Shown in pieces: positions 39,048 to 41,556 of a stretch of DNA of 41,556 nucleotides (the first letter of the stretch is position 1; every line of letters begins with the position of its first letter). This DNA is from Flavobacteriales bacterium. GTDB taxonomy: Bacteria > Bacteroidota > Bacteroidia > Flavobacteriales_D > Sanyastnellaceae. Below the pieces are notes generated by a model that saw nothing but the letters and a program-made list of their open reading frames with translations, did no database searches and had not been told where the DNA came from. The position numbers were made by a program, and so were the translations under genes. Location: positions 1 to 41,556 of the forward strand of contig JADFAK010000144.1 of NCBI GenBank assembly GCA_015665315.1, read 5' to 3'.

Positions 39048-40235
39048 TTACGCTTCCGAACTCGCCGAATCGTCGCGAATATGACGGAATATGTCCCGAT
39101 CTTCTGCCGTAAAGTCAATGCCACGGCGCGCCATGACTCGCTCGGCAACTTCATAACTTTTTTCAAGTTCGAATGGTACGAAACCATCACTTCCTCCCCA
39201 AGAGAAACTAGGAATAAACTTAGGTGGAAATCCGCCCCCAAAAATATTTGCGCAGCAGCCCACTGTTGTGCCCGTGTTGAATTGAGTGTTGATGGCCGAT
39301 TTCGAGTGGTCGCCCATGATCAGACCAATAAAAGTTTGCCCAGAATTAACGAGTTTTCGCTCCTTGTAATCCCACGTTTTGACTTCCGAGTAGTTGTTTT
39401 TTAGATTGGACGTATTGGTGTCGGCTCCGAGATTGCACCATTCACCAAGTACCGAATTCCCTAAATAGCCATCATGTCCTTTGTTGCTATAACCTAGTAG
39501 TACCGAATTGCCCACTTCACCTCCAACTTTACAATGTGGACCGACAGTAGTAGCACCGTAAATTTTCGCGCCCATTTTTAGGCTAGCATTTTTGCACAAG
39601 GCAAATGGCCCCCTAATCATGCAGCCTTCCATGACCTCTGCATCCTTTCCAATATAGACAGGGCCTGAGCTGGTATTGATGGAGCAGGGAAGGATTTGAG
39701 CACCAGGCTCAATGAATAGCCTGTCTGCCGGCCCAATAACTGTCACATAAGCTTCGACCCCAGCCGAATGCCGACCTGCTGTCATCTTGTCGAAATCGTC
39801 TTGAATGAACTTTTCGTTATGGGTGAATAAATCGCTGATCCGTTCCAATAGAAAGCATGTGCCGCCGTATTCGGTTTGAGTCAGCTGGCCATGAACTTGA
39901 ACAAGTTGGTCGAAGCTGAACTCAGATTTTGTTTTGAAGGCTACACATTGACCGCGATACGTAAGCGCTGTTTCTTGCGCCAAGGACCGTATGGCCATGA
40001 CGATGTGCTCATCTGGAATTAGGCGGCTATTTACATAAACATTGGCATTCTGGTAAATAGGATTAAATTTCGCACTGAGGAAATCTGGAACTTTGTAATT
40101 GGAAACTTCTAAGTCAAAATCATTCCATTTTTCTGCTATTGTGCGAATTCCAGCACGCAGCAATCCTACTGGTCTAGTAAATGCCAGAGGTAGAAATTTG
40201 TGACGTAAATGGTCGTCAAACAATTGAATACTCAT
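39048..40235 (-). CDS. GlmU-like nucleotidyltransferase/acyltransferase family protein
   Basis: 395 aa. The first 190 residues resemble a reduced sugar-phosphate nucleotidyltransferase domain (LFDDHLRHKFLPLAFTRPVGLLRAGIRTIAEKW); residues about 190-330 are a left-handed beta-helix of hexapeptide repeats (GPVYIGKDAEVMEGCMIRG, GPHCKVGGEVGNSVLLGYS, HDGYLGNSVLGEWCNLGADT). This layout matches the alternate GlmU family of the phylum (TIGR03991), proposed to make UDP-GlcNAc, though its N-terminal Gly-rich nucleotide motif is not the classical LxGGxGTR. UDP-GlcNAc would feed wall synthesis and also BshA. It is divergent from the MerR gene with 82 nt between starts. Biochemical role is less sure than family membership. 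Confidence 0.8.
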   Translation of the reverse strand: MSIQLFDDHLRHKFLPLAFTRPVGLLRAGIRTIAEKWNDFDLEVSNYKVPDFLSAKFNPIYQNANVYVNSRLIPDEHIVMAIRSLAQETALTYRGQCVAFKTKSEFSFDQLVQVHGQLTQTEYGGTCFLLERISDLFTHNEKFIQDDFDKMTAGRHSAGVEAYVTVIGPADRLFIEPGAQILPCSINTSSGPVYIGKDAEVMEGCMIRGPFALCKNASLKMGAKIYGATTVGPHCKVGGEVGNSVLLGYSNKGHDGYLGNSVLGEWCNLGADTNTSNLKNNYSEVKTWDYKERKLVNSGQTFIGLIMGDHSKSAINTQFNTGTTVGCCANIFGGGFPPKFIPSFSWGGSDGFVPFELEKSYEVAERVMARRGIDFTAEDRDIFRHIRDDSASSEA

Positions 40236-40317: not shown

Positions 40318-41235
40318 ATGGAAAACTGGCGAATGCAAGAATTTTCAATCAACGACCTAGAAAGTTTTACTGGGGTCAAGGCTCATACTATACGGATTTG
40401 GGAACAACGATACGGTCTCTTAGAGCCACGTAGAACAGATACCAATATTCGAGTTTACAGTGATCAGGACTTGAAGAAACTCATCAATGTGTCTGTACTC
40501 AATCGCATGGGGCATAAGATTTCTTCGATTGTAGAAATGTCTGAAACGGATGTGTCCAAGGCATTGGTGGAGGTTGCAAATACTGACGCCGACGATGCGC
40601 AAGCGATTGATATGCTCAAGTTGGCGATGTTGGATTTTGACGAAGAGGCCTTTGCGGGGATTGTCAGAAAGAGCATGGCCGCGACTGGTGTTACCGAAGT
40701 TTTCGAGTCAACTTTGGTGCCTTTTTTGGATCAGGTTGGGATTCTTTGGCAGACAAGTGCGATTTGTCCAGCGCATGAGCATTTCGTGAGTAATTTAATT
40801 CGTCAGATTATTTGCAGTGCCATTGACCAATTGCCAAGAGCGCCCAAAAATGATGGGTCACCGACTTATGTGTTGTTTCTGCCCACAGGCGAAGTTCATG
40901 AGCTCGGTTTGTTGATGATCCACTACGAGTTACGATTGGCTGGCCTCAAATGTGCCTACTTAGGTCAGTCACTTCCCATTGAAGACTTAAACAGTGTTCG
41001 CCAGAGTTTAGGTAAGTGCACTTTTGTGTCCCATCTGACCAATGCCTCCGTTTTTAGCCGAGTCTTGTCCATGTTCGAATCTATAAAACAGGCGTTCAAA
41101 GGCCATGAGGTTAATTTCTATTTGTCGGGAAATGGGTTCCGGTCTACGTCTAGCTCAGAGTCGATCAAAGTGTATGCTACTGCTAAAGAGATGGTTGAAG
41201 CTATCCTGGCGGCAAAGGGGGGCGTTTCAGGATAG
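40318..41235 (+). CDS. MerR-family regulator with cobalamin-binding domain (CarH/LitR-like)
   Basis: 305 aa. Residues 6-75 are a MerR winged helix (FSINDLESFTGVKAHTIRIWEQRYGLLEPRR). Residues about 95-175 are the helical B12-cap with Trp144 and Glu154-His155 in the W-x9-EH pattern; residues about 183-300 are the B12 Rossmann domain with E192-x-His194-x-x-Gly197, where the His would ligate cobalt. In CarH, adenosylcobalamin in the dark makes a DNA-binding tetramer and light breaks it. Here the residue after Trp144 is Gln, whereas Thermus CarH has His132 there, the light-state ligand. Start may also be the second Met at 40333. The ECF sigma gene follows after 112 nt packed with repeats, a likely target of this protein. 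Confidence 0.9.
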   Translation: MENWRMQEFSINDLESFTGVKAHTIRIWEQRYGLLEPRRTDTNIRVYSDQDLKKLINVSVLNRMGHKISSIVEMSETDVSKALVEVANTDADDAQAIDMLKLAMLDFDEEAFAGIVRKSMAATGVTEVFESTLVPFLDQVGILWQTSAICPAHEHFVSNLIRQIICSAIDQLPRAPKNDGSPTYVLFLPTGEVHELGLLMIHYELRLAGLKCAYLGQSLPIEDLNSVRQSLGKCTFVSHLTNASVFSRVLSMFESIKQAFKGHEVNFYLSGNGFRSTSSSESIKVYATAKEMVEAILAAKGGVSG

Positions 41236-41259
41236 GGAATTGTTCCTCTTTTCAACTAA

Positions 41260-41342
41260 TGTTTAATGAATCGTAAAAAACATTAAACAAAATTTTGTGA
41301 TTGACGGAATATGTTTAATCTTTGCGGTGCATTGTTAAACAA
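41260..41342. promoter_or_regulatory. Array of TGTTTAAT-type half-sites (putative MerR operator)
   Basis: TGTTTAATG at 41260-41268 faces its exact reverse complement CATTAAACA at 41281-41289 across 12 nt. Another TGTTTAAT at 41312-41319 overlaps the -7 box, and the quasi-palindrome TTGTTAAACAA lies at 41332-41342. The half-sites flank and overlap the promoter of the sigma-factor gene, the geometry expected of a repressor acting by occlusion. Confidence 0.65.
41294..41324 (+). promoter_or_regulatory. Promoter of the ECF sigma factor gene (TTTG-N19-AATCTTTG)
   Basis: TTTG at 41294-41297, 19-nt spacer, AATCTTTG at 41317-41324 (one base off TAnnTTTG). Transcription would start near 41330, about 18 nt before the ATG. 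The -7 box shares bases with an operator half-site. Confidence 0.7.
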
Positions 41343-41347
41343 AAGTC

Positions 41348-41556
41348 ATGTCAAGAAAAGAATTTGAATCCCTATTGATTTCCAACATCGATAATTTGCG
41401 CATCGTCGCAAGGAAGTTTGTACGAGACACCAACGAGATAGAAGATCTAACGCAAGAGACCTTGTATCGCGCATTGAAGTATAAGGACTACTACCAAGAG
41501 GGAACTAATTTTGGAGGATGGATTTATACTGTTTTACGAAATGTGTTCATCAACGA
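41348..41556 (+). CDS. ECF-type RNA polymerase sigma factor, 5' part only
   Basis: 69 codons to the window edge. The protein begins MSRKEFESLLISNIDNL; ARKFVRDTNEIEDLTQETLYRAL is sigma region 2.1-2.2 with the core-binding 'DLTQET' signature, and FGGWIYTVLRNVFIN is region 2.4, which reads the -10 side of its promoters. Region 4 is outside. It is preceded by an operator-rich promoter and the B12-type MerR gene. Sigma factors of this kind often sit next to such MerR regulators at the head of carotenoid clusters in Flavobacteriia; whether crt genes follow cannot be seen. Confidence 0.92.
   Translation, partial: MSRKEFESLLISNIDNLRIVARKFVRDTNEIEDLTQETLYRALKYKDYYQEGTNFGGWIYTVLRNVFIN

Follow-up and report, generated by a model that had tools for sequence, protein, structure and literature searches.

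A CarH-type MerR regulator and a predicted inverted-repeat operator that may head a photoresponse regulon, including proteorhodopsin in relatives, in a Flavobacteriales bacterium

The window analysed here is a stretch of 41,556 bp that makes up the whole of contig C32 in a genome of 4.6 Mb and 219 contigs. At its end, a MerR gene with a cobalamin domain is followed in the same direction by an ECF sigma factor gene, as the first-pass annotation had read it and as was confirmed by Pfam and by the open reading frames (40318-41235, and 41348 onward). Two 30-bp palindromes with a start-to-start distance of 52 bp lie between the two genes, and a predicted promoter of the Bacteroidota type lies between and under them. 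The features are as follows.

40318..41235, + strand: CarH-type MerR regulator of 305 aa (ORF list, Pfam, phmmer, predicted structure), with an HTH domain at aa 9-74, a B12 helical domain at aa 97-164 and a B12 Rossmann-type domain at about aa 180-301
40747..40782, + strand: Wx9EH motif WQTSAICPAHEH, aa 144-155 (motif scan of homologues)
40891..40908, + strand: ExHxxG motif EVHELG, aa 192-197, in the context GEVHELG (alignments)
41260..41289, no strand assigned: predicted operator site 1, TGTTTAATGAATCGTAAAAAACATTAAACA, TGTTTAA-N16-TTAAACA, with fully complementary 9-nt arms (pattern scan)
41293..41297, + strand: -33-like element TTTTG of the predicted sigma promoter, 18 bp before the -7 element
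41312..41341, no strand assigned: predicted operator site 2, TGTTTAATCTTTGCGGTGCATTGTTAAACA, TGTTTAA-N16-TTAAACA, covering the -7 element
41316..41324, + strand: -7-like element TAATCTTTG within site 2 (alignment of 42 promoters)
41348..41556, + strand: ECF sigma factor, N-terminal 69 codons (region 2), open at the window end (Pfam Sigma70_r2, E=4.9e-11)

In Pfam, the MerR protein was matched above cut-off by MerR_1 (E=1.4e-11) and B12-binding_2 (E=1.2e-9), and the second half of its B12 module received no call. T. thermophilus CarH was its best match in structure as well as in sequence; phmmer aligned it with CarH (5c8d) at E=1.6e-22, and a ColabFold model (pLDDT 86.5, pTM 0.82) was superimposed on CarH 8c33 over residues 92-299 (Z 18.1, rmsd 2.2 A, 192 residues) and on CarH 5c8e over 270 residues (Z 18.3, rmsd 12.1), the high rmsd in the second case presumably resulting from a different HTH placement in the model. 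The CarH entries aligned to the B12 module of the model with Z of 17-18 over 190-198 residues. The NCBIfam CarH equivalog model gave 98.5 bits and did not reach its cut-off of 400, indicating that the protein is not the same equivalog as CarH; with this score and no tandem-repeat operator, it is classed here as a CarH/LitR variant and not as CarH itself.

The Wx9EH motif, which we take to be the adenosylcobalamin-pocket signature of CarH and tied to the adenosyl group, was found in 80 of the 81 MerR homologues scanned, the sole miss (L066) being a misread frame, and in all 48 family genomes read. The pattern of the second motif, whose His is presumably the lower cobalt ligand, was matched in 46 of 48 family genomes, and the other two sequences (EIHELSI and EIHDISI) differed at the last pattern letter only. 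W144, E154, H155 and H194 were invariant across alignment A1 (26 proteins), and the His of ExH was kept in all 80 aligned sequences, with G, A, S or V at the sixth motif position. The residue after the Trp of Wx9EH, equivalent to His132 of T. thermophilus CarH (the number was taken from PDB titles and the place from the phmmer alignment), is Gln in the window protein and Gln, Leu or Ile, never His, in the 80 aligned homologues. The protein thus has the sensor motifs of CarH, and it probably works in a CarH-like way. An adenosyltransferase (PF01923) was found in the window genome and in 59 of the 61 family genomes, so the cells can probably convert imported cobalamin to AdoCbl. The gene divergent to MerR (39048-40235 of the window) codes for a bifunctional GlmU-like enzyme of the TIGR03991 type, and loci L022 and L026 are similar in order (lon, GlmU-like / MerR, sigma).

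The genome was scanned for TGTTTAA/TTAAACA palindromes with gaps of 12-18 bp allowed, and exactly four were obtained, all with the 16-bp gap, against none for the reversed pattern and a single match when the reversed pattern was relaxed to Y/R at one letter per arm. Allowing one mismatch gave no sites and two mismatches gave 16, while the reversed control gave 42 matches up to two mismatches; the regulon claimed for this genome is thus limited to the four exact sites. The half-site TTAAACA includes TnnACA, the core of the CarH repeat nAnnTnnACAn, and the reading of DNA by the HTH domain is therefore probably conserved, though the arrangement differs.

The sigma promoters of the window and 41 family genomes, selected for a site at most 25 bp from the sigma start, were aligned. 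The stretch between the sites has the consensus TTTGG, and the site nearer to sigma contains TAATnTTTG, with TTTG at 95-98% per position in the 42 promoters; in 36 of the 41 family genomes, the other site of the pair lies 52-55 bp further upstream. The box TAATnTTTG is close to the flavobacterial RpoD consensus TTG...TAnnTTTG (PMC3587595), having one extra base between TA and TTTG. Several Pontibacter loci carry site pairs 63 bp apart. As a helical turn of DNA is 10.5 bp, distances of 52-55 and 63 bp are near 5 and 6 whole turns, which fits paired sites on one DNA face. The earlier proposal that the MerR protein represses the sigma gene gains support from this operator pair, which brackets the predicted sigma promoter.

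A weight matrix was built from 50 distinct MerR-sigma sites, with a score of 10 as the usual cut-off. A site with a score of at least 21.9 was present upstream of sigma in all 46 family genomes read at this locus; these counts are partly biased by loci fetched for their operator, and G009, G010, G022, G036 and G048, which were chosen by their MerR gene and have no exact site, did not contribute to the matrix. Among 235 windows upstream of other genes, ten scored at least 10; nine of them were already counted operators viewed from opposite-strand ORFs, and the tenth (L154) lies just upstream of MerR.

As the window is a complete contig, the sigma gene breaks off at its end; region 2 is present in the window ORF and region 4 would fall past the contig end, and the same-genus homologue in L022 has both regions. 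The rest of the gene was not identified among 23 sigma-like matches in the own genome. The genes expected next had been crt or photolyase genes, and this was not borne out, as the contig ends inside the sigma gene, the crt operon lies on another contig (C64) and a surface-protein gene comes next in eight of eight relatives' loci. These are the eight with sufficient sequence past sigma among ten named Flavobacteriales loci that have the MerR-sigma pair without crt, and the protein is of the choice-of-anchor L / T9SS type; in L022 and L026 its gene was read directly as the next ORF. Since a secreted-protein gene follows sigma in many relatives, surface adhesion may belong to the response. The order MerR-sigma-crtI is real elsewhere, though absent from the nearest relatives, and was found in 38 of the 80 named loci, mostly from Pontibacter, with or without a detected site. 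In the same-genus locus L022 (6735-13140), sigma is followed by two genes in tandem for secreted proteins of about 1050 aa each, the first with choice-of-anchor L and T9SS sorting.

The two remaining exact palindromes of the genome are found at other genes. The third, on C64, ends one base before the TTG start of crtI, which heads an operon of crtI, crtB, a 152-aa hydroxylase-like gene and lycopene cyclase; the 152-aa gene received no Pfam or NCBIfam name, and we take it by resemblance to be 'CrtZ'. The fourth, on C131, lies 9 bp before a gene for a secreted four-domain fasciclin protein, followed by tspO, and also includes TAATATTTG. The predicted operators are thus positioned either over the -7-like box (sigma) or against the start codon (crtI and many fasciclin genes). 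Of the light- or cobalamin-responsive carotenoid module that the first-pass annotation had suggested, the type of regulator and, through the operator at the crtI start, the carotenoid link were upheld, and the adjacency of crt genes in this genome was not; the gene check in that annotation covered adjacent genes only, whereas the module is joined by the operator across contigs.

The exact-site scan was extended over 61 family genomes, with Y/R allowed at one place per arm. Exact sites were obtained in 44 of them, and the reversed control was matched in one. When the presence of MerR was defined as a match better than 1e-20 and the co-occurrence table was counted by hand, sites occurred in 42 of 51 genomes with MerR and in 2 of 10 without it (Fisher p = 0.0003); the two exceptions are G007, which is 87% complete and has its site at crtI, and G059. 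Among the family sites listed, 57 exact-site loci were fetched, the sites of eight further family genomes lying outside this set. The site was located at a sigma gene in 32 of the 57 (29 of the 32 with MerR, or part of it, alongside), at a fasciclin gene in 11 (four of them shared with a divergent photolyase), at a rhodopsin gene in four and at crtI in one. Three of the four rhodopsin loci carry a lycopene cyclase/dioxygenase fusion or a blh-type dioxygenase, and one faces a photolyase-like gene. A site scoring at least 10 was detected upstream of crtI in 5 of the 30 family genomes read, the other 25 being without one, and upstream of the fasciclin gene in 12 of 13 genomes, a count biased by loci fetched for their operator. 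Seven sites within ORFs (L131, L133, L150, L152, L155, L156 and L163), with TGTTCAA-type letters on at least one arm, were set aside as chance. Exact operators at L180:4014 and L172:4048 lie near genes for secreted-looking proteins of about 1060-1250 aa, which are possible members of the regulon.

Outside the family, 46 of the 80 named MerR-homologue loci have a site scoring at least 10 within 480 bp after MerR, against 6 of 669 windows taken at random from these loci (highest score 25.6). The arrangements include MerR-operator-crtI in Pustulibacterium, MerR-operator-fasciclin-crtI in Tenacibaculum, and MerR-operator-sigma-crtI in Pontibacter, Adhaeribacter and a Chitinophaga MAG. In six of the 80 (L057, L066, L078, L083, L086 and L092), MerR and a photolyase gene are divergently oriented; these are Bacteroidetes, Bacteroidales and Marinilabiliales MAGs with no crtI match in the locus.

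To judge the link to rhodopsin over the order, 92 rhodopsin genes were read, 45 from the family and 47 from other families, in which 46 of 57 genomes with rhodopsin were covered. A site scoring at least 10 within 300 bp upstream was present at 50 of the 92. The family accounts for 16 of these (among 45 genes) and the other families, counted irrespective of MerR presence, for 34 (among 47; f9 21/30, f3 7/7, f4 4/5, f13 2/2, f8 0/2, f10 0/1). As the rhodopsin hypothesis came from four family loci, the 47 non-family genes are independent of both the hypothesis and the matrix. In the controls from these loci, not one of 87 further-upstream windows or of 92 in-gene windows scored even 6, and a score of 10 was reached by 0.7% of 9200 first-order resamplings. 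The 50 sites are located 17-135 bp before the estimated start. At the same cut-off, 29 of the 45 family rhodopsin genes have no site; counted by genome, 27 of 43 score under 10 before rhodopsin and 20 under 6, MerR being established in 35 of the 43. Two family genomes with rhodopsin and no real MerR match, G018 and G034, have no rhodopsin site, which is a small sample. No rhodopsin was found in the window genome or in its sister G006.

A box TGTT(A/C/T) follows the operator by 14-17 bp in 23 of the 50 rhodopsin promoters (for example L294, L319, L327 and L222), compared with a mean of 1.5 and a maximum of 6 in letter shuffles; 12 of the 23 come from genus g29, 11 of 22 genera are represented overall, and the element was picked post hoc by inspecting the same sequences. 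It is possibly the -10 box of a non-RpoD sigma factor and would then define a second promoter class. The RpoD-like -7 box was rejected as a rule for the rhodopsin sites, being present within 120 bp in 13 of 50 against 207 of 1840 random windows.

The kind of protein, its conserved sensor residues, the operators, their overlap with the promoter and their distribution were computed. Judged from these, the regulator is probably an AdoCbl-dependent, light-released repressor of the CarH type, which would act through an inverted-repeat operator and head a photoresponse regulon, extended in relatives to proteorhodopsin. Its binding to the sites, its dependence on AdoCbl, its release by light and the repressive direction are what we infer. 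In the dark, the MerR protein with bound adenosylcobalamin would oligomerise on the two palindromes about five helical turns apart; as the pair brackets and covers the RpoD-type promoter of the ECF sigma gene, sigma would be kept off. The protein would also occupy the operators at the crtI start, for crtI, crtB, the hydroxylase-like gene and lycopene cyclase, and before fasciclin-tspO. In light, the Co-C bond would be split and the MerR protein would come off the DNA, turning on sigma, carotenoid synthesis and the secreted fasciclin protein. In relatives, the operator would add proteorhodopsin, in some together with retinal synthesis genes, and it also lies between fasciclin and photolyase genes. 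If this is true, the supply of vitamin B12 is tied to photoheterotrophy and photoprotection.

The same protein could alternatively be a sensor of cobalamin status that represses when adenosylcobalamin is plentiful, with no role as a photoreceptor in the cell and with B12-responsive targets. The B12 module is intact and yet the position of CarH His132 is not His, and the adenosyltransferase is present in almost all genomes, including those without MerR, as this reading would allow. We nevertheless regard it as unlikely, as the recognised targets are related to light (carotenoids, rhodopsin with retinal synthesis, photolyase neighbours), no gene of B12 uptake or synthesis was recognised among the ORFs searched at the fetched sites, and Wx9EH, which is tied to the adenosyl group in CarH, is invariant.

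Another possibility is that the palindromes are bound by a different protein or read by the ECF sigma factor itself, the MerR gene being a mere neighbour. Operator-sigma arrangements without MerR alongside (L149, L153 and L160), the exact sites in G007 and G059 and the rhodopsin box, which is placed as if the right arm of the operator were a -35 element, are in line with such a binder. The co-occurrence of sites and MerR given above speaks against it, as do sites beside MerR where no sigma was detected (L036, L038, L076, L089 and L095), the CarH-repeat core within TTAAACA and the RpoD-like character of the sigma promoter itself, and this reading appears quite improbable. A third reading follows CarA of Myxococcus, a CarH paralogue that binds its operator as cooperating dimers (PMC9304148): the repressor would not need B12, its B12 domain would be vestigial, and an antirepressor or a stress signal would release it. 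This is very hard to reconcile with the invariance of the presumed cobalt-ligand His and of Wx9EH in the homologues read, or with the nearest relatives, in which the gene following sigma encodes a surface protein and is not CarS/CarR-like.

Returning to the light-released repressor, the chance is about even that such a B12-dependent protein directly controls proteorhodopsin throughout the Flavobacteriales, with the pump repressed in the dark; the ECF sigma factor may in addition read the derepressed promoters, using the right arm of the operator as -35 and TGTT(A/C/T) about 15 bp further on as -10. The light circuit would then be a feed-forward one, with phototrophy gated by the supply of vitamin B12. 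The control of rhodopsin is poorly understood, and an operator common to a B12-photoreceptor gene and rhodopsin names a candidate regulator, binding site and signal. The constitutive rhodopsin expression reported for the flavobacterium Dokdonia PRO95 (PMC3587595) speaks against a uniform rule, as do the family rhodopsin and crtI genes that have no site. In literature searches of open-licence PMC papers, the titles and abstract openings listed showed neither a CarH-type operator before rhodopsin nor a link to fasciclin, and no experiment on DNA binding, light or B12 with the window protein was found.

The operators of characterised CarH consist of 11-bp direct repeats in tandem (nAnnTnnACAn) and overlap the promoter of the target; CarH binds them in the dark with AdoCbl and leaves them in light (PMC8156234). 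The window protein shares with CarH/LitR (T. thermophilus CarH, 5c8d, 5c8e) the domain order, the fold of the B12 module, Wx9EH and ExHxxG, a carotenoid target and an operator overlapping the promoter, here a predicted one. It differs in that its operator is an inverted repeat with a 16-bp gap instead of tandem direct repeats, so the CarH geometry may not fit unchanged, and also in often having two sites about five turns apart, in Gln at the His132 position, in the pairing with an ECF sigma gene and in the wider regulon of its relatives, including rhodopsin and fasciclin. The CarQRS/CarH system of Myxococcus xanthus likewise combines a MerR protein of the B12 type with an ECF sigma factor in one light response (PMC8156234); there, sigma is held by the anti-sigma factor CarR and CarH acts at the crt promoter, whereas here the operators lie on the sigma promoter itself, and the nearest relatives of the window have a surface-protein gene after sigma.

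Light-induced carotenoids are also known in Bacteroidota from Chryseobacterium lacus, whose authors speculate that one gene acts in a CarA/LitR-like way, and in the available part of that report the regulator and operator are not established (PMC7064467). Strain GF1 has a MerR gene with a B12-binding domain beside or upstream of crt genes, for which a response to photooxidative stress was suggested; unlike the present system, no operator, sigma factor or rhodopsin link is described in the available part of that source (PMC6974559). The CrtI of the window genome (L014:5094-6557, C64) shows 73% and 63% identity to that of genus g18 (G044 and G034; L251 and L252) and 45-55% to most of the family, and in G044 crtI adjoins a MerR gene and has a weak operator (13.7) that likewise touches the start codon; the crt operon may have been acquired together with its operator from a g18-like lineage. 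GF1 itself we take to be a flavobacterium.

A fasciclin protein regulated by light would be a candidate partner of carotenoids. AstaP, an algal carotenoid-binding fasciclin (PDB 8c18), shares the FAS1 domain with the bacterial protein (sequence match E=2.4e-10), and other FAS1 proteins match better (periostin, E=1.5e-44), so that carotenoid binding by the bacterial fasciclin is only a guess. AstaP proteins are reported to be inducible by photooxidative stress. On the fasciclin-tspO contig, a HipB/HipA-like pair (L015:3-1657) and a Fic-like gene (L015:6190-7575) were also recognised by eye.
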